From the NCBI RefSeq assembly GCF_000018365.1, contig NC_011529.1:1364001-1428000 (forward strand): a DNA stretch of 64,000 nucleotides. Direction: 5' to 3'. Of this stretch, positions 1,607-40,441 are shown piece by piece (the first letter of the stretch is position 1; each line of letters starts with the position of its first letter). This DNA comes from Thermococcus onnurineus NA1. Lineage in GTDB: Archaea; Methanobacteriota_B; Thermococci; Thermococcales; Thermococcaceae. Below the pieces are notes generated by a model. It was not told the origin of the DNA and ran no database searches. It was given only the letters and a program-made list of their open reading frames with translations. The position numbers and the translations under genes are program-made.

Positions 1607-2803
1607 ATGGCCAAGAGAGTCCACATCTTTGACTGGCATAAGAAAAATGCTAAGAAGGTTGAGGAATTCGCCGGATGGGAGATGCCTATCTGGTACTCGA
1701 GCATAAAGGATGAACACCTCGCCGTCAGAAATGGCGTTGCCATCTTCGATGTCTCGCACATGGGGGAGTTCATTTTCAAGGGTAAGGACGCGCTGGAGTT
1801 CCTCCAGTACGTTACTACCAATGACATAAGCAAGCCCCCCGCGATAAGTGGAACCTACACCCTCGTCCTTAACGAGCGCGGAGCTGTGAAAGACGAGACC
1901 CTTGTCTTCAACATGGGGAATGACACCTATATGATGGTCTGTGACAGCGATGCATTCGAGAAGCTCGAAGCCTGGTTCAACGCGATAAAGCGCGGAATAG
2001 AGAAGTTCGGGGAGCTCGATCTTGAGATTGAGAACAAGACCTACGACATGGCAATGTTCTCCATTCAGGGACCAAAGGCAAGGGATCTGGCAAAGGATCT
2101 CTTCGACATCGACATCAACGACCTCTGGTGGTTCCAGGCCAAGGAAGTCGAACTCGACGGCATAAAGATGCTCCTCTCAAGGAGTGGCTACACCGGCGAA
2201 AACGGCTTTGAAGTCTACTTCGAGGACGCCAATCCATACCACCCCGATCCAGAGAGGAGAGGCGAGCCCGAGAAGGCCCTCCACGTCTGGAAGACAATAC
2301 TCGAAGCCGGCGAGAAGTACGGCATTAAGCCTGCCGGACTCGGCGCCCGTGACACTCTCAGGCTTGAGGCTGGCTACACACTGTACGGCAACGAGACCAA
2401 GGAGCTTCAGCTCCTCAGTACCGACATCGACGAAGTTACCCCACTCCAGGCAAACCTTGACTTCGCCATATTCTGGGACAAGGAGTTCATCGGAAAGGAG
2501 GCTCTGCTCAAGCAGAGGGAGCGCGGCATTCCGAGGAAGCTCGTCCACTTCAAGATGATCGACAAGGGCATCCCAAGGGAGGGCTACAAGGTCTACGCCA
2601 ACGGCGAGCTTATCGGCGAGGTCACGAGCGGAACCAGCTCACCTCTCCTCGGCATTGGAATAGGCATTGCCTTCGTTAAGACGGAGTATGCCAAACCTGG
2701 CGTCGAAATAGAGGTTGAGATAAGGGGCAAGCCCAAGAAAGCCGTAACCGTTGCTCCCCCGTTCTATGACCCCAAGAAGTACGGCGCCTTCAGGGAGGAG
2801 TGA
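1607..2803 (+). CDS. gcvT: Aminomethyltransferase, glycine cleavage T protein
   Basis: Transfers the aminomethyl carbon of glycine from lipoylated H protein to tetrahydrofolate (or an archaeal pterin), releasing ammonia. The 398-residue frame carries the GcvT fold with the folate-binding region around [12 protein letters not shown] and the C-terminal barrel ([21 protein letters not shown]). I chose ATG 1607 over an in-frame GTG at 1598 because that GTG lies inside the GGTGAT ribosome-binding site, which is correctly spaced from 1607. The lipoate ligase-like gene at 41939-42688 could supply the lipoyl group of the partner H protein. H and P protein genes are not in the window. Confidence 0.95.
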
Positions 2804-2835
2804 GGTTTTTATTCCCTTTTCCCACATCTTTCCCC

Positions 2836-3663
2836 ATGTCTAAAAAGCACGCGATCGGAGCCGTTCTCCTCTGGTCAACGGTTGCATCTGCCTTCAAGCT
2901 CTCGCTCGGGTATCTAACTCCACTTCAGCTGGTCTTCTACGCCTCGCTAACTTCATTGTTCGTCTTTGGCGTTCTCTATGCCAAAAATTTCTCACCGAGG
3001 AGGGAGAACCTTCGTTCGGCCTATCTCGGGCTGATTAATCCACTTATTTACTACACGGTACTCTTCTCGGCCTACGACCGCCTGTCGGCCCAGGAGGCAC
3101 AGGCCTTTAACTACACCTGGCCGCTGATGCTGGTTGTCCTCTCTATCCCCATCCTCGGAAAGAGGCCCAGTGCTAGGGCAATAGCTGGCTTGTTCCTCGG
3201 CTTCCTCGGGGTCCTCGTCGTTGCAACTAAAGGGAACCTGGCCGAACTGAACTTCACAGACCCGGTAGGTGTTGCATTGGGCCTCTGGAGCGCTGTGATA
3301 TGGGCATCTTACTGGATACTGAACCTCCGCGACGAGAGGTCCCCAGTTGAGAAGATGTTCTGGAACTTCCTTTTCGGCTTCATCTATGTAGCGACAGCAA
3401 CTTTCCTCACCGGAAGCCTCGCCCTCCCAGAACCAAAGGCTCTGGCTGGAGCTATTTACGTCGGCCTCTTCGAGATGGGCCTGACCTTCCTGCTCTGGTA
3501 CAGAGCCGTGGAGAACGACATGGCCTTTGCCTCAAACCTGGCCCATATTGTCCCCTTCCTCTCGTTAGTCTTCATATCGGTGGTCGTGGGCGAGAGCATA
3601 GCTCCATCAACGGTTGTGGGACTGGCGATGATAGTTGGCGGAATCGTTATTGGAAGAGAATAG
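2836..3663 (+). CDS. EamA/DMT family transporter
   Basis: A 275-residue integral membrane protein with about ten hydrophobic segments in two homologous EamA halves, as in drug/metabolite transporters. The substrate is unknown. An upstream in-frame ATG at 2800 would overlap gcvT and adds a non-family N-terminus. I prefer ATG 2836 because a T-rich TATA-like box (about 2806-2813) lies about 27 nt upstream, the pattern of a leaderless archaeal transcript. It begins 32 nt after gcvT but probably has its own promoter. Confidence 0.85.
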   Translation: MSKKHAIGAVLLWSTVASAFKLSLGYLTPLQLVFYASLTSLFVFGVLYAKNFSPRRENLRSAYLGLINPLIYYTVLFSAYDRLSAQEAQAFNYTWPLMLVVLSIPILGKRPSARAIAGLFLGFLGVLVVATKGNLAELNFTDPVGVALGLWSAVIWASYWILNLRDERSPVEKMFWNFLFGFIYVATATFLTGSLALPEPKALAGAIYVGLFEMGLTFLLWYRAVENDMAFASNLAHIVPFLSLVFISVVVGESIAPSTVVGLAMIVGGIVIGRE

Positions 3664-7744: not shown

Positions 7745-9444
7745 CTAACTATAACCGAGAAGCCTAAGGATATCGAGCGCTAAAAACGTTGCTATCGGAT
7801 CCCCCTGCTTGGGATTCTCGTAGGGAGCGTAGGAGAAAAAACCGTAGGGACACTTTCTCCGCTCAAGGGCCTTTACTATCTCTTCTTTGCCTTCAACTTT
7901 GGCCCCCATTGAATTTAGAGCCAGCAGCGCGTATCTAGTTATTGGCAGAGACCACCACAAGGCGCCGTTTCTGTTGGATTCAATAAACTTCACTGTCTTT
8001 CCATCCCTGTAACCGTACCCAAGCTCGTTGAGGATTAAAACTGAGTAAAGCGTTGTTTCGAGCCTAACAATTTTTATTTTGGATATTTTGCTGCCAAATC
8101 CACCATCATCATCCCTCAAGTCCAAAACGAAGGAGGTTACAGTTTCTTTCCATGATTCGTCGATTTCAATGCCCAGTTCCCTACTCGTTACAAGCAGATA
8201 GTATACATCCTTGAGGAGATAGTGGTTGTGATAAACAGCGGACAGATTCAGGTTGGTGATGAAGTTCTGCAAGCGGGGCTTTACAATCTTCTTAAGATTC
8301 TCATTGGGGACACCTAATACCCGTAAGGCTCTGTACTCTGCCCATATTGCACTCGGTTTGTCTTCGTCTGAAAGCTCTGAGAGCAGGTAGTCCTTGACTT
8401 TCTCCTCTCTTGGCACTGTAGAGTTCAGAAGTCCAAGGGTCATCACCGAGAAAGCTGTGTCCAACGGGTTCGGTATTATACTGTACGGAATCTCTATGAA
8501 ACCTCCCAAGGGACTCTCCAAAGACCGCAAGTAACGCACCGTGTCTGTCCCGACTTCTCCCCCAAGATATGTTATCGCTTCCACTGCCCAGTGGGTAGTG
8601 TCGATGTACCCCCTTTTGGCCCCATTCGTATCGGAGTACGAACCATCTGAGCACTTGTATTTGGAAATATCGGCCAATATTTCTCTCCTGAGTGTCTCGT
8701 TTTTGATGTTTTCTTCCTTCATAAAGCGCGCAAGAGTGTGAAGATCATAAAAGCCAAGGTTATTTACCTCACGGGATGCATCATCAAACACTGTTCTCGC
8801 CAGCTCATGCATTCTGGTGTAATTTGGTATCTCCGCAGGGGAATAGCCGGACATCACGAGAAGCTCCCTGAGCTGAAGAAAGTTCCACACAAAATTTAAG
8901 GAGTGCTCCGGCTTCAGGGAGAGCCAGAGGGACATGGAAACGTTCTTCGCAAGGGGGGAGTTCAGTAAAATAAGGCTTTTTGCATGCAAGAAAGTCTCGT
9001 TTGACTTCTTCATATCTTCAAGGATGAAGTTTTCAATGGTTTCCCTGCTTCCCAGACTCAAATTAAACTCCTTGAGGAGCGTTAACAGGTAATAGACATC
9101 AACAACGGAAAAATAATCCTGCCTGTTGTAGATCTCCCCCTCGTAGTCCTTCAAAAATTCCCGGGTTTTCTGGGGATGCGCAGGGCTCAGGTTCAGTAGA
9201 GCCAACGTCAGAACCCCGTGGTACGTCGCGTACAGGGTGGGGAGTATCGTAAAAGACACGTCACCGTCCCAGCCGCCCGTAACCGGATCCTGGGCAAGTT
9301 CAAGGCGTCTTACCGTCCAGTTCCCCCAGGAAGGGCTTATCACTCCCTGAGCGGTCGGTTTTTCAGTGTGGGGGACTTTTGTTAAGGCCACAATAGCCGC
9401 GACGCTCAATAAAATCAAGAGAGAGGAGAGAATTTTTTTCTCAT
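7745..9444 (-). CDS. Exported alpha/alpha-toroid-like protein, frameshift at an A7 run after the start
   Basis: About 565 residues. It has repeated helical units with G-G-[FW] turns (GGWDGDVSF, DGSYSD, GGFIEIP, GGFGSK, YGFFSY) resembling prenyltransferase/squalene-cyclase-type alpha/alpha toroids. The function is unknown. The only well-placed start is ATG 9442-9444 behind GAGGTGAG, but that frame stops after nine codons. The long frame is entered by one backward slip on A7 (9433-9439), read as A-AAA-AAA, giving a signal peptide beginning MRKKILSSLL. Without slippage the first long-frame start would be TTG at 9418, far from the ribosome-binding site. It starts 9 nt after the upstream secreted-protein gene and shares its operon and AT-rich composition. 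Confidence 0.7.
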
Positions 9445-9453
9445 TGTCTCACC

Positions 9454-10305
9454 TCAAAACGCAGAGGAGTCTACTGCCACGGATGTACTCGTATCGAGAC
9501 TTCTAAATACACCCTTTTTGACCTCAAATGTTGCTATAGGCTTAGAGCTTACCCTATAAATCCGCACCTTGAAATAATCATAAACCGTTAGTGTCCCGTC
9601 GTATGGATGGGATATTGAGTCGTAATTACTGACACTGTCTTCTCCAAAAGAACCATCTATTGAAACCCATGAACTACCGCCGGACACTTGAATCGATAGT
9701 CCCGGTGGAAGCGAGATAGTAACCCCTATGCTCCAACCGTCAGTGTATGTTTCTCCGTAGAACGACAATTTGTTGATCAACTTGATGCTCTTACAGTTGT
9801 ATTGGTAGGTAATGTAAGGTGGATATTCCATGATTGCTGTACTATAGGCATAGTGATACACGCTAAAGTCTACAGTTTCCACTGGATCGTAATAGTCTAT
9901 TCTAAATCTAGCAGAGAGTGCTGCACCTACCGATAGTTTTATTTTCTTGTTATCGTTTAGTTTAAGAGTTGTAACCCTGTAATTATAGTCAGATTTAGTT
10001 ATGACATTTCCATAGTTACTCTCTATTGTCACGTCATTCCATTTGTTCAAAACGCGCTTTACCATCAGTTGATTGACTTTTTCTAATATATCACCCCTAC
10101 CCACTTCCGAAGTTTGCCCTATAATTATCATTCCGTTGCTCATCTTTCTCAGTGGAACATTCACTCCATCAACCGTAATTTTCTCGTTGGTACTAATCTT
10201 TTCTGAAGCCTCTGGCGCTGGATACTGCTCTGCGTATACTGCCCTTCCTAAGGTTCCAACCATCAGCAGTCCAATTAGGACTGCTAGTAATGGCTTCCAT
10301 CGCAA
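9454..10305 (-). CDS. Secreted protein of unknown family
   Basis: A 283-residue exported protein: signal peptide about 1-25 (RWKPLLAVLIGLLMVG then AVYA), then a beta-rich domain full of Tyr, Ser and Thr, with no membrane anchor. I do not recognise a family. The frame opens at a GTG at 10314, but that codon lies inside the GAGGTGAG ribosome-binding site, so TTG at 10303-10305 is the better start. It is the first gene of a two-gene unit with the toroid-like exported protein. A leader region with TATA-like AT-rich sequence lies at 10320-10400. AT-richness suggests recent acquisition. Confidence 0.7.
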   Translation of the reverse strand: MRWKPLLAVLIGLLMVGTLGRAVYAEQYPAPEASEKISTNEKITVDGVNVPLRKMSNGMIIIGQTSEVGRGDILEKVNQLMVKRVLNKWNDVTIESNYGNVITKSDYNYRVTTLKLNDNKKIKLSVGAALSARFRIDYYDPVETVDFSVYHYAYSTAIMEYPPYITYQYNCKSIKLINKLSFYGETYTDGWSIGVTISLPPGLSIQVSGGSSWVSIDGSFGEDSVSNYDSISHPYDGTLTVYDYFKVRIYRVSSKPIATFEVKKGVFRSLDTSTSVAVDSSAF

Positions 10306-10536
10306 GTTGCTCACCTCATATAAGTTTCTGCATTACCACTTAAACAACTTGTCTTTATAAGTTTTTCCTTTTACTATAAGTAAATTTTCTTTGTTTTTTT
10401 TCGAGTACAAATTTTTTCAGACTCAATTTTTACTCTTAGAATGAACGAAAAGAAAGCAGAGTAAAGGGGTTGCATAGTCATGCAATAGCTAAACCCTTAT
10501 ATTCTCCCTCTTCCTCAGCTTTTCAGGTGAGATAGA

Positions 10537-14817: not shown

Positions 14818-16524
14818 ATGGAGGTACTCAGGCACGAAGGCCCTGGAAGGCTGGGTCTCGTAAGGCTGGGAGAGTACTCCTTCAGAACTCCAGCTTTGGC
14901 AGGGGTAGATTTTACCCTCTCCCCGTTCAATTCCTTCTTCCACCCCAAAGAGCCGGGTGATTATGACTTCAACCTTGCTCCGGCAATACCTCTCGGCTTC
15001 TACACGCCGGACGAGGTTATCCAGAAGGCCATAGGAAGGCTCTGGAGCATAAATTATGAAGGATTCAACGCATTCTATCTGCCCGCACTCCGCCGGATGG
15101 AATACCTCCCCGAGTTCTTCAAAATAATCGAGCGCTATGGCTTTGAGGCAGTTTACCTCGGCAACTCGAAGATTCTTATCAGGGAATACCGCTACTTCGT
15201 GAGAATTTTAAGGGAAATCCGCGAGAGGTTTCCCAACATCATGATAATCGCCGATTTGGAACCATTCTTCTATCCACTGGCGGTTTATCTCGGTGTTGAT
15301 GCCTTCGACACCCGTTCGCTCAAGCTCTACGACTTTGCGGGCAAGGCCTTCACCCAGTACAGCCCCTTCATCTGGAAGGAAGGCGGGAACTCCCTTGACT
15401 TCGCCCGTGAGACAATCCTTCTCGTCAGAAAGGCCCTCGAAGAAGGCAAGCTCCGCTATCTGGTTGAGAACTTCTTCCCGACGCAGTACAACGCGGGCAT
15501 TCTCAGAATAGCCGATCTGGAGCACGGCGATTACCTCGAAAAATACACACCGATCCAGAAGGAGACGGTCTACTTCATCAGCGACGCCTCGATAAGGAGG
15601 CCTGAGGTAAAGCGCTGGCACTCCCGCGTGGTTGAGCGCTTCGTCCCGCCGAAAAACACCGAGATACTTCTCCTCTTCCCCTGCTCGGCCAAGAAGCCCT
15701 ATTCATTCTCGCGCTCCCACACGCTCTACCGCAAAGCTGTGAAAGAGGCGCTCGGCTCTGGCATTGCCAAAGTCCACGAGCTTATCCTTACCTCACCCTT
15801 CGGCGTCGTCCCGAGGGAGTGGGAGTGGCTGGCCAAGTACGACATAGTCGTCACCGGCCACTGGAGTGAGGAAGAGATCAAACCAGCGGCAGAGCTCCTC
15901 GCGAAGACGCTGGAGAAGTACCCGAAGGACGTTCCGATAATAGCCCACCTCGACGAGGCCTACGTCGAGATAGCCAAGATGGCCGCTGAAATGACAGGCA
16001 GGGAGATAATCTTCACCCGTGTTGAGAACGGGACCACGAGCAAGGAAAGTCTCAGGTCACTGACTGAAACCCTTAGAGAGTTCGAGCTTGAGGGAACAAA
16101 GGAGGACAGGACATACCGCTACTTCGAGGGCATAAGGAAGGTCTTTGACTTCTATTTTGGTATTGGCGCTGGAGAGGCCGTCCTGCCGGATAAAGGCCAG
16201 GTTAAGGGCTCCAAGATGCTTCGCCTCTTCGTCGACGGCCAGCAGACGGGAACTTATAAGGATGGCGTGATAAGCGTGACGCCCTTCGGCATGCAGAGGG
16301 TTTATGATGCAACCAAGTCCTACTGGGTGAAAATAGACTTTGACCTTCGCGGTGATGTCTTCGCAGTGGGTGTTGGCGAGGCCGATGAGAGGATCCGCCC
16401 AGGTGATATAGTAGGTATTGTCAGGGACGAGAAAGTCGTCGGTGTCGGCAAGGCCGTCCTCAGTGGCGAGGAGATGGTCAGGGCCAAGAAGGGCGTTGCC
16501 GTGAAGGTAAGGAAGAGGGCCTGA
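14818..16524 (+). CDS. arcS: Archaeosine synthase subunit ArcS
   Basis: Acts in conversion of preQ0 at position 15 of archaeal tRNA to archaeosine. It adds lysine to preQ0-tRNA, which a radical SAM partner (RaSEA) then cleaves in Thermococcus. The 568-residue protein has a TGT-like N-terminal domain lacking the usual TGT active site and the ArcS signature PCSAKKPYSFSRSH starting at residue 288. A C-terminal PUA domain (about 495-568) carries the typical GDIVGIV and VGVGKAVLSGEEM. RaSEA and TgtA are not in this window. The stop codon directly abuts the ago stop codon on the other strand. Confidence 0.93.
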   Translation: MEVLRHEGPGRLGLVRLGEYSFRTPALAGVDFTLSPFNSFFHPKEPGDYDFNLAPAIPLGFYTPDEVIQKAIGRLWSINYEGFNAFYLPALRRMEYLPEFFKIIERYGFEAVYLGNSKILIREYRYFVRILREIRERFPNIMIIADLEPFFYPLAVYLGVDAFDTRSLKLYDFAGKAFTQYSPFIWKEGGNSLDFARETILLVRKALEEGKLRYLVENFFPTQYNAGILRIADLEHGDYLEKYTPIQKETVYFISDASIRRPEVKRWHSRVVERFVPPKNTEILLLFPCSAKKPYSFSRSHTLYRKAVKEALGSGIAKVHELILTSPFGVVPREWEWLAKYDIVVTGHWSEEEIKPAAELLAKTLEKYPKDVPIIAHLDEAYVEIAKMAAEMTGREIIFTRVENGTTSKESLRSLTETLREFELEGTKEDRTYRYFEGIRKVFDFYFGIGAGEAVLPDKGQVKGSKMLRLFVDGQQTGTYKDGVISVTPFGMQRVYDATKSYWVKIDFDLRGDVFAVGVGEADERIRPGDIVGIVRDEKVVGVGKAVLSGEEMVRAKKGVAVKVRKRA

Positions 16525-18825
16525 TTAAAGGAAATAAAGAGCACCCTCTTTTAGGAATTCATAACGATTAAATTTGAGTTCTCTTCGTTCATAGTTTATG
16601 AGTCTGTGAGATAAATGCACAGGAGCAGGTAATTTCATTTTATCTGGGTTCTCTGGCTGTGAATAGTTCAATTTTGTGAGTTTTGTTATTGTCATTATGT
16701 CCTCCCGAGAAATGACATTTTTAGATATCTTTCCTCGTGCTACGAAATACGTGTTTCCAAGTTTCAATGGGACTTTAAGATAATTTGTGAAATAGTGGGC
16801 AGTTAGATAATAGGTATCACCAATCTTAAAGTAGTAATTATGGCGTGGACTCTTGACAGTGTGTTCTTTATAGTTTTCCCAGAAAAAGCGCACTAATGGT
16901 CTTTTTAAGATTTCAATTATCGTGAACCTATAGTTGTATTTTCGAGAAATCTCCTTAAATTGTTCAAGTTCTCCTCCTGGGACTTTTCCATCTCTTAAGA
17001 ACAATATGTCGGCGTATCCTTTCCTATTTAATATTGCTGCGGCTTCTTGTTGAATATTTCCGATGAGATAGTTAATATTGGCTGTTTCGCTACTGGACTG
17101 TGGAGAAGTTATTGGTATAATCTTGAGAACTTGTCCATTTTTATTTTGTACTACTGCAGCCCCAGAAATACCGTAGTATCGCCCACTTTTATCCATTTCC
17201 CGGGTTACATCCAGTCCAATTATAAAGTCATAGTTAAGATTATCGAGAGAATAGAAATAAATGCCAAATGCATAAAGTGCTTGTAGTATCATGCTTTCAA
17301 TGAGTTTCTTTTGGTCTTTAGATGGATCACGCAAATTGTTTATGTTAATTGCTTTATGGAGAATTCCATTGTTAAAAAAGAAGCCCTTAATTTTATCGAA
17401 TTGCTCTTGCCTCATATCCGGGATTAGCGTTATTGCAAGGTGGTAGTCATATTCAACTCCCTTTTTGGAATGTATCCTTGTAAATGCGCTCTCGATTAAG
17501 TTCTCATAGTTTACAGGTATTCTACTAATAATGTCAATGGCTGAGGGAAGACTAAGACCTTCATTAACTTTCCTGAGGAATGTAAAATATTCTGAGAGCC
17601 TTTTTATTGTGCTGTCCACACTCTTTATTAAGTTCTGGATAACCTTAAGACTTTCAGAGTTCTCCCGATATTTTGCTGGGTATAAAATGTACACTCCAAT
17701 AGTTTTATCTCGCAGAAATTCTGGTGATTGGATAGGAATTATTAATTCAGAAATATCATCGAAAGGGGTGTTAGTGAACAGCCAATTAAAAGTCCCCTTA
17801 ATATTGTAATATGGTTGGATCGTCTTTTCTGTAATTGTTTTGTTTTTAAGGAATACTGCCTTGTAACTAATTGTTCGTTCATCAATTTTAAATGCTGGAA
17901 AAATTGCTCGCCCGGGGTATTTTGTAGAGTCGTATATTATATCGGCAACCAACTTTTTTGCGATGTTAAGGGCTTTTATGAATTCGTTTGATCTATAGAT
18001 CTCTCTCAAAATTTCTTTGTTTATCGGCCGAATTAATTTTGTCCTTGCAGAATGGTATGATAAATATTTTCCCCGTGTTTGACTCCTGAAAATGATATTA
18101 TAGTCATCTGGATACTTAGAGTCATCAATGGGACCAAGTTCTGTTTTCTTAGTGAAATATTCGTTAATCCGCTCCAGTTCTTGCTGGTATCTATCTGGAT
18201 CCTTAGTTTTCAATATAATTTCCACAACCCTATGTCCCGGAGGTAGAGGGACGTCTTTTCTGGAGGTTTGTATTTTCCATTTAGGGTCTTTTAAGAGATT
18301 GTGTACTAGCTCCTTAACAGTTATCTTTCCCTCGATCAGCAGTTCCATAATTGTATGATTTTCAATTATCTTGTACTTTGGTAGAGTGACGAGATAAAAA
18401 TGCTGCCCGTCATACTCAACTGTCACTAAAAATTTACGTATGATACTTCTTTCGGAATTAATGCTTTTCACGACCTCTCTATGCCCACGAATGTCACGCA
18501 GATATCCTTCTGCGTTAAGGATATTGAGTACTAATTTAGTTTTGTTTTCTTTCGACAGTTCAGAAAAACTAAATGCTCTGACTTCTTTCATATCATCTGG
18601 ATAATGATTTTGCAGCAGACTTTCCTTTCCCACTACCCATGCACTGTTAGTCATCTCATCGTAGTTTAGAATGATACCCCCAATCTTTTGTATCTCACTA
18701 TACGCTTCTTCGGGGTTAGAAGGCATATTGGTGACTCGAGCAACGATAATATCGGATAATATGTCTTGGATTAACTCATCTTTTAGGCGGTACATATTAC
18801 CTTGATAAAAAGTCTGTTTCTCCAT
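16525..18825 (-). CDS. ago: Prokaryotic Argonaute, long form with intact catalytic tetrad
   Basis: A 766-residue full-length pAgo, close to P. furiosus Ago in length and C-terminus (MKLPAPVHLSH and a hydrophobic -YFL end). The PIWI domain (about 500-766) shows D539 (IIGLDVTR), E580 (SSETAN), D612 (LFLRDG) and H740, which align with the PfAgo DEDH tetrad at nearly the same spacing. The protein should therefore cut nucleic acid; DNA-guided cleavage of DNA is expected from relatives. N, PAZ and MID regions are present by length. Start ATG 18825 follows GGTGATGCT. Base composition is strikingly AT-rich (28% GC in 17221-17280 against 58% in 15841-15900 of arcS), which indicates transfer. No partner nuclease, helicase or CRISPR gene is adjacent. 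Confidence 0.96.
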   Translation of the reverse strand: MEKQTFYQGNMYRLKDELIQDILSDIIVARVTNMPSNPEEAYSEIQKIGGIILNYDEMTNSAWVVGKESLLQNHYPDDMKEVRAFSFSELSKENKTKLVLNILNAEGYLRDIRGHREVVKSINSERSIIRKFLVTVEYDGQHFYLVTLPKYKIIENHTIMELLIEGKITVKELVHNLLKDPKWKIQTSRKDVPLPPGHRVVEIILKTKDPDRYQQELERINEYFTKKTELGPIDDSKYPDDYNIIFRSQTRGKYLSYHSARTKLIRPINKEILREIYRSNEFIKALNIAKKLVADIIYDSTKYPGRAIFPAFKIDERTISYKAVFLKNKTITEKTIQPYYNIKGTFNWLFTNTPFDDISELIIPIQSPEFLRDKTIGVYILYPAKYRENSESLKVIQNLIKSVDSTIKRLSEYFTFLRKVNEGLSLPSAIDIISRIPVNYENLIESAFTRIHSKKGVEYDYHLAITLIPDMRQEQFDKIKGFFFNNGILHKAININNLRDPSKDQKKLIESMILQALYAFGIYFYSLDNLNYDFIIGLDVTREMDKSGRYYGISGAAVVQNKNGQVLKIIPITSPQSSSETANINYLIGNIQQEAAAILNRKGYADILFLRDGKVPGGELEQFKEISRKYNYRFTIIEILKRPLVRFFWENYKEHTVKSPRHNYYFKIGDTYYLTAHYFTNYLKVPLKLGNTYFVARGKISKNVISREDIMTITKLTKLNYSQPENPDKMKLPAPVHLSHRLINYERRELKFNRYEFLKEGALYFL

Positions 18826-18923
18826 AGCATCACCATATGAATTCCCTTAATGTGAAGTTTAATAATTTTTGTCTTAGATAATAAGGCATAACTCCTAAAA
18901 ACCCTCTTTTCTATCTTCCCCAC

Positions 18924-19220
18924 ATGCCCAGACACTTCAAGCGTGGTGTCAAGAGGGAGCACCACTTTCTCAAAGGCCTTGAAAAGCCCCTCGAAGAGAT
19001 AGCCCAAATTCCAGGAGTTAAGAAGGTAATTCCCGGGAGGATCTACGCGAGCGACTCAAGGGGCTTCGAGATAAAGGTCTCGCGGGAGACCCCAACGGGG
19101 CTGAAGCTTATAGCGAAGAGCGATGGCTCAGTTCAGGATGTCTTTCTTGTCGTCGACAAGGCTGACAGGGAGAGAGTCTGGGGGGAAATCGAGAAGCTGA
19201 GTGATGAATGGAAAAATTAA
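18924..19220 (+). CDS. DUF2103-like small conserved protein
   Basis: A 98-residue basic protein beginning MPRHFKRGVKREHHFLKG, with a basic N-terminal segment and an alpha/beta remainder (GRIYASDSRGFEIKVSRETP). It resembles archaeal DUF2103 proteins, described in databases as predicted metal-binding, though only a histidine pair is obvious here. It is divergent from ago, and its start may be leaderless. An RNA-binding role would fit the charge but is a guess. Confidence 0.7.
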   Translation: MPRHFKRGVKREHHFLKGLEKPLEEIAQIPGVKKVIPGRIYASDSRGFEIKVSRETPTGLKLIAKSDGSVQDVFLVVDKADRERVWGEIEKLSDEWKN

Positions 19221-39369: not shown

Positions 39370-39477
39370 GTGAATTCACCAGGGTGGATATAATCGCCAG
39401 GGTTTTTAGGAGTTTGGCATGAAATTAAAGAAAGGGTTAAATTCTTGCTCATATAACCTTCCAGGTGGTGAACCAAG

Positions 39478-40441
39478 ATGCCAGATTACTTCTTAATATC
39501 CCTTTCAAACAGAAGAACAGAAGAAATCTAGAACTCTGCATAGAATACGCCCTTGCTGGTTTTACAAACAGTATAAATGGTCTCTGGACATTTTTCGACA
39601 TAAACGTTGGAGATTATGTCTCTTTTCTGTACGGAGCAAGAGTCAGAAACCTGTACCAGGTTGTTAGAAAAGTTGCCTACAAAAACGGGGAGAATCTTTC
39701 TCCTTGGCCGCCGATAACCTTCAGATCAAAAAGGACATATTATTTTCCTTTCAGGCTGTTCTTAAAACAGGAGAGAGAATTTAATGAGCCAATGGTCAGG
39801 CCCGAATTTTCTTACGTAGCTGAGAACTTGCTTTTGAGAGGTGGCTATAGAAAGACACATTTTCAAGCTGATACAATAACCTTTTACAATGTCTCTGAGA
39901 TGGAAAGCGCATTTAATGGCGAAACCAAGTATATAGAGTTCGAGGCCGAGCCTTTTGAACCCAAAATTGTTTTCAACGAGAAAACCAAAAAAATTCTGGA
40001 AAAGTTCTACTTTAAAGAACTTATACTCCAGTCTCTCGTGAGAAGAAAAATCCAGAGTTCCGTTCTCGATGATGCTTTGGAATTTTTTGGTATTGATAAG
40101 TCTCCAGATGAATTTGAAGTGCTTGGTGAAAAAGCCCTTCCTGAGGGATACGTCGATATATTCATCAAGCTAAGACATCCAGCTGGAACAAATAAGTATC
40201 TGCTCGTGGAAGTTAAGACTGGAAATGCGCAAAGAAAAGACATAGAACAATTAATAGGACACATAAGCGAATTTAGCAATGAAACTGTTGGGGGAATACT
40301 AATCGCCAGAGATTTTTCAAAATCTGCCCTTGATAATCCAAAATCCTGCTAGTTAGATACTATTTTGATGGCTTAGACAAATCGGCAGAGTATAGTTACG
40401 AAGAACTGCTGAGAATGCTAACCTTAGAGGTGATAATATGA
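39478..40441 (+). pseudogene. EVE-domain + PD-(D/E)XK nuclease, disrupted by frameshifts
   Basis: ATG 39478 behind GGTGGTGA opens [12 protein letters not shown] but reaches a stop after 17 codons. A perfect 8-bp tandem duplication (AACAGAAG twice, 39508-39523) causes it; deleting one copy joins the start to a long frame beginning [15 protein letters not shown]. That frame has an EVE-like modified-base reader domain (to about residue 150) and a nuclease part with GYVDIFI and LLVEVKTG. It stops early at 40352, and one base missing in AAAA (40340-40343) would restore [20 protein letters not shown] to TGA 40439-40441. The intact protein resembles a modification-dependent restriction enzyme. A GTG at 39465 could express a 295-residue version with an altered N-terminus. 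Confidence 0.75.

Follow-up and report, generated by a model that had tools for sequence, protein, structure and literature searches.

A solitary, probably catalytic long Argonaute in the variable arcS-DUF2103 pocket of Thermococcus onnurineus NA1

The gene described here lies in a 64-kb window of the Thermococcus onnurineus NA1 genome (the whole stretch of 64,000 nucleotides that was analyzed). It is likely to encode a solitary Argonaute of the long-A type, a probable DNA-guided DNA nuclease that would require no partner, and to be the cargo at present carried in a pocket of variable content that separates arcS from a DUF2103 gene. By analogy with PfAgo and TtdAgo, from which the types of guide and target are taken, the protein would function as a stand-alone DNA-guided DNA interference nuclease that, with no partner protein, degrades the DNA of plasmids or viruses. 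A role in defense is assumed from its family, as given by the PADLOC match described below.

The Argonaute gene and its product

The open reading frame at positions 16525-18825 is located on the minus strand, begins with an ATG codon, and encodes 766 amino acid residues with zero internal stops. The initial annotation had placed a 766-residue, long-form prokaryotic Argonaute between arcS and a DUF2103 gene, and this assignment is confirmed; the strand, not given there, is minus. The left flank is formed by arcS, which encodes archaeosine synthase subunit alpha (14818-16524, plus strand; NCBIfam NF040592, 508 bits versus a cut-off of 440 bits), and the right flank by the DUF2103 gene (18924-19220, plus strand; PF09876). 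The TGA codon of arcS ends at position 16524 and the converging stop codon of ago begins at 16525 such that, as had been reported, zero bases lie between them. The divergent starts of ago and the DUF2103 gene are separated by 98 bp (18826-18923). There is no further coding sequence between arcS and DUF2103, and the earlier claim that partner genes are absent is borne out for this interval, which encodes ago alone. A single Argonaute was detected in the whole 1.85-Mb genome. The G+C content of ago is 35.9%, as compared to 54.6% for arcS and 51.0% for the window, and the gene constitutes the most AT-rich stretch of 2301 bp anywhere in the window. The local values originally quoted, 28% for positions 17221-17280 and 58% for positions 15841-15900, were recomputed as 28.3% and 58.3%, respectively.

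The encoded protein matches the Pfam Piwi family (PF02171) with 49.4 bits (cut-off 28.9, 5e-13) and the PADLOC pAgo model PDLC02397 with 471 bits. Its matches among solved structures are to Argonautes only, namely PfAgo (1e-41), TtdAgo (2e-36), and AaAgo (1e-6). In a profile alignment with a TtdAgo-like pair, residues 8-766 pair with residues 8-752 at 27% identity and a probability of 99.8%. Since a Pfam scan of the protein detects neither a PAZ domain nor an N domain, the assignment of these two regions comes solely from the profile alignment spanning residues 8-766. A single-sequence AlphaFold2 model had a mean pLDDT of 37 and was too poor for use.

The catalytic tetrad that had been proposed, D539, E580, D612, and H740, was verified at the level of both residues and codons by a seven-protein alignment and a codon check. 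The corresponding codons, all on the minus strand, are positioned at 17209-17211 (D539), 17086-17088 (E580, the "glutamate finger" position), 16990-16992 (D612), and 16606-16608 (H740). When seven Argonautes from the phylum are aligned, the other six all being from Thermococcales, the columns of this DEDX tetrad do not vary. One of these six, encoded by genome G071, matches PDB entries 8jsi and 8wd8 wherever the printed alignment allows comparison, and is taken to be TtdAgo from Thermococcus thioreducens. In TtdAgo, the tetrad D538/E576/D608/H725 is required for DNA-guided cleavage (PMC10017986). Because the tetrad is conserved with that of TtdAgo, the NA1 protein is predicted to be a nuclease. 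With its intact reading frame and full tetrad, ago probably encodes a complete, catalytically competent long pAgo, and the original description of an apparently active enzyme is upheld as predicted activity. Weighing against assignment as a DNA-guided DNA nuclease is an amino acid sequence identity of only ∼27% to any characterized Argonaute.

The MID pocket and comparison with known Argonautes

The 5'-phosphate pocket of RsAgo is formed by Y463, K467, Q478, and K506 (PMC6299218). In the NA1 protein the residues aligned with these, without gaps and with identical spacing, are F476, K480, K491, and A519, rather than the canonical MID set of Y/R, K, Q, and K. Two of the four canonical residues are thus altered. 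K491 (codon 17353-17355, minus strand) takes the place of a glutamine and A519 (codon 17269-17271, minus strand) that of a lysine; both changes are found in the Argonautes of NA1 and of genome G018 only, and the other five that were compared retain the glutamine and the lysine.

These two changes may, as judged from the alignment, alter the choice of guide, and they also count against the proposed use of DNA guides in the manner of PfAgo and TtdAgo. In a stronger form of the argument, the altered pocket would lead to a non-standard guide, such as one lacking a 5'-phosphate or one composed of RNA. The substitutions common to NA1 and G018, in an alignment without gaps and with the spacing of RsAgo (PMC6299218), favor such a guide. 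The first lysine (K480) is retained, however, and K491 may replace the lost lysine in phosphate binding. Moreover, non-canonical MID variants occur within the long-A group and most are thought to bind 5'-phosphorylated guides (PMC6299218). A non-standard guide is thus considered unlikely and, because such long-A variants have been reported, a non-canonical MID pocket does not by itself exclude membership in that group. Quite improbable is the notion of a distinct lineage of Thermococcus Argonautes in which a rewired MID pocket would load a guide 5' end other than that bound by PfAgo and TtdAgo. In this view, selection would maintain the AT-richness of the genes, and homologous recombination in arcS and DUF2103 would pass them from species to species as a cassette of one gene.

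Argonautes are sparsely distributed in this phylum. A search with the pAgo model identified them in 8 of 115 genomes, and a search with the Piwi model in seven, in keeping with the earlier statement that only some Thermococcales carry them. The only close relative of the NA1 protein is that of G018, which belongs to the same genus; no relative was found in plasmid, phage, and viral contig collections, and scans of genome contigs likewise returned none. The G018 gene is situated at the same arcS-DUF2103 site in the same orientation with 0 bp between the stops, has a G+C content of 36%, and encodes the same lysine and alanine in the MID pocket. Nevertheless, the two proteins are only 52% identical, the right junctions differ, and the arcS gene of G018 belongs to another clade, in which a PIN/UPF0175 cassette predominates among the remaining members.

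TtdAgo resembles the NA1 protein in that the profile alignment extends over the putative N and PAZ regions as well as over MID and PIWI, the tetrad is DEDH, and the gene is solitary with 35% GC. It differs in its identity of ∼27%, its location at another chromosomal site beside a radical-SAM gene, and its retention of the canonical glutamine and lysine in the MID pocket. PfAgo from Pyrococcus furiosus (PF0537; PDB 1u04), likewise ∼27% identical, can be aligned over the tetrad and the C-terminal half, but the sequence search is significant only from approximately residue 361 to residue 766, and the MID residues differ. The MID-OH Argonautes, such as MpAgo, have similarly departed from the canonical 5'-phosphate pocket. 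Unlike ago of NA1, however, they are encoded close to cas genes within CRISPR loci (PMC6299218); the neighbors of ago are arcS and DUF2103, and no tandem repeat array is present in the 64-kb window. In summary of these comparisons, ago represents a second, diverged type of Argonaute in Thermococcus-like hosts, itself an ordinary long Argonaute, solitary and probably catalytic, that is unusual only in its MID pocket.

Among the other Argonaute loci, the TtdAgo-type genes of G070 and G071 (L096, 8529-10787; L097, 9631-11889) share a second single-gene site adjoining the radical-SAM gene. In G049 the Argonaute gene (L094, 9266-11653) adjoins a type I restriction-modification operon. The 880-residue Argonaute-like protein of G093 (L117, 1-2643) was missed by the Piwi model, and the 3' end of its gene is overlapped by one encoding 337 residues (2612-3625), possibly a partner.

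The pocket between arcS and DUF2103

The contents of the arcS-DUF2103 junction vary among relatives. Among 63 such loci, 25 are empty, 15 contain a gene for a secreted-looking protein, nine a PIN/UPF0175 cassette, two an Argonaute gene, and 12 other DNA. On a tree based on arcS, at least 17 changes of state are needed to account for these contents. The secreted-looking cargo is a protein of ∼347 residues with no Pfam family, and the PIN/UPF0175 cargo is a toxin-antitoxin pair consisting of a DUF3368-PIN gene and a UPF0175 gene. Genes of the secreted type are found at this junction in other genera as well; they may therefore be an older cargo, with emptiness often reflecting a loss. Note that in the PIN/UPF0175 cassette of G019 (L063) the frame of the PIN toxin is apparently split into two open reading frames, unlike in its relatives, and that G050 has two differing arcS-DUF2103 loci (L074 and L082) on short contigs, which suggests a mixed genome bin.

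The inspection of relatives for empty sites, as proposed in the initial annotation, revealed 24 in which 32-36 bp separate the last codon of arcS from the start of DUF2103; in all 24 the arcS stop codon is TAA and overlaps the apparent DUF2103 promoter. It had also been reasoned that the presence of ago here in all neighboring genomes would speak against a recent insertion. This proved not to be the case: among the others, only G018 has ago at the site. In the genome closest to that of NA1 (G038, with 95-98% nucleotide identity in arcS), ago is replaced by a secreted-protein gene, and the two provide a natural pair for comparing an ago-bearing genome with one lacking the gene. Accordingly, the gene-sized insertion originally described holds with respect to its precise boundaries but, relative to G038, not as an insertion into an empty site, the difference between the two genomes being gene for gene. 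The right junction of NA1 (18883-18923, plus strand), which begins with AAGGCATAACTCCTAAAAACCC, matches the empty-site sequence of G071 and G036, including the end of arcS, its TAA stop codon, and the likely DUF2103 promoter. Because this empty-site-like sequence is kept, the ago cassette probably first entered an empty site.

The inserts of different species are normally less alike than their arcS genes, the median difference among secreted-type inserts being -17 percentage points. Exceptions to this pattern are the four pairs G038/G037, G028/G037, G038/G028, and G017/G039. In G038/G037 the inserts are 99.6% identical as compared to 79.8% for the 5' half of arcS, and the identity rises near arcS position 1200 and declines again where DUF2103 begins. 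The inserts of G028/G037 and G038/G028 are 95.5-95.7% identical versus 84.7% for arcS. For G038/G028 the insert value is 95.7%, with 96.9% for the 5' end of DUF2103; here the rise occurs at the end of arcS and the drop ∼195 bp into DUF2103. For G017/G039 they are 95.3% in the insert versus 84.7% in arcS. Such steps in identity are the signature of homologous recombination via the genes on either side, by which these relatives exchange cargo. A clean recombination locus behind arcS, as had been suggested, is thereby substantiated in the form of a pocket flanked by core genes, and no mobile element is needed to bring new cargo into such a single-gene pocket. It may be that ago itself entered the NA1 lineage by the same flank-mediated exchange, but the evidence for exchange comes from the secreted-protein cassettes, and the flanks of ago in NA1 contain no mosaic tract of their own.

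A site-specific target behind arcS is not indicated. Sharp boundaries and a weak repeat, in which the end of arcS recurs at each of the two junctions, could be explained by a mobile element whose site-specific recombinase places single genes behind arcS. The junction contains no integrase, transposase, or recombinase gene and no tRNA, however, and the phage, plasmid, and viral collections hold no relative of ago. The 9-bp repeat (AGGGCCTGA / AAGGCATAA) matches at only six of nine positions and is missing in G018; it was judged too weak for a target-site duplication. Such an element is considered very improbable.

Age of the Argonaute gene at this site

The low G+C content of ago was originally interpreted as the mark of a recent acquisition, that is, a horizontal transfer from an AT-rich donor whose footprint has not yet ameliorated. 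In keeping with this, ago has a G+C content of 36% versus 51%, the nearest genome (G038) lacks the gene, and the same family includes AT-rich genera with 39-40% GC around their Argonautes. The Argonautes of NA1, G018, G070, and G071, however, all display 35-36% GC at two sites in Thermococcus loci of 51-52% GC. Indeed, those of G070 and G071, which occupy a common site, differ at 46.6% of their fourfold sites, yet their GC4 values are 28-33% beside 66-76% for the neighboring genes. Because these four Argonautes stay at 35-36% GC through heavy synonymous turnover, low G+C content, on the sequences compared, does not date the arrival of ago and, within this group, is a poor guide to when an Argonaute gene was acquired. 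Either ago is held AT-rich or it has been repeatedly imported from AT-rich sources.

The anomalous tract near the junction likewise argues against a recent arrival, for it belongs to G038. A foreign tract at the 5' end of the NA1 DUF2103 gene was considered and dropped when comparison of G038 with G028, G037, and G040 placed the anomaly in G038. Over the first 195 bp of DUF2103, G038 is 97% identical to G028 and G040, whereas arcS is 84-87% identical, and NA1 lies at the background distance. G038 is therefore the recent recipient, and ago in NA1 may be older than the swap in G038. Given that the recent swap lies in this sister genome, recency of ago at the site is, from the sequences at hand, an unproven claim, and we regard a recent acquisition as rather unlikely. 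That ago is an older resident of the lineage common to NA1 and G038, lost from G038 when the secreted-protein cassette recombined in, can be put forward tentatively. The 97% tract in DUF2103 favors it, as does the 99.6% identity of G038 to G037 across the insert with the NA1 flanks at background divergence. On the other hand, parsimony on the arcS tree places ago on single tips only, and residence could not be told apart from transfer out of a donor lying at background distance.

The window contains other variable stretches. A second AT-rich (∼39% GC) single gene at 39465-40352 (plus strand) encodes 295 residues, with a weak C-terminal match, below the cut-off, to the restriction-endonuclease-like Pfam family NA-iREase1; 18 of 61 genomes of the genus have it, and the closest relative, G038, lacks it. 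The region at 7745-10314 (minus strand) is another variable spot between core genes. The products of its two genes look secreted, and one of them has a prenyltransferase-type toroid domain; the two genes have no aligned counterpart in the examined region of G038 or G018 and align with G040 at 97-98%.
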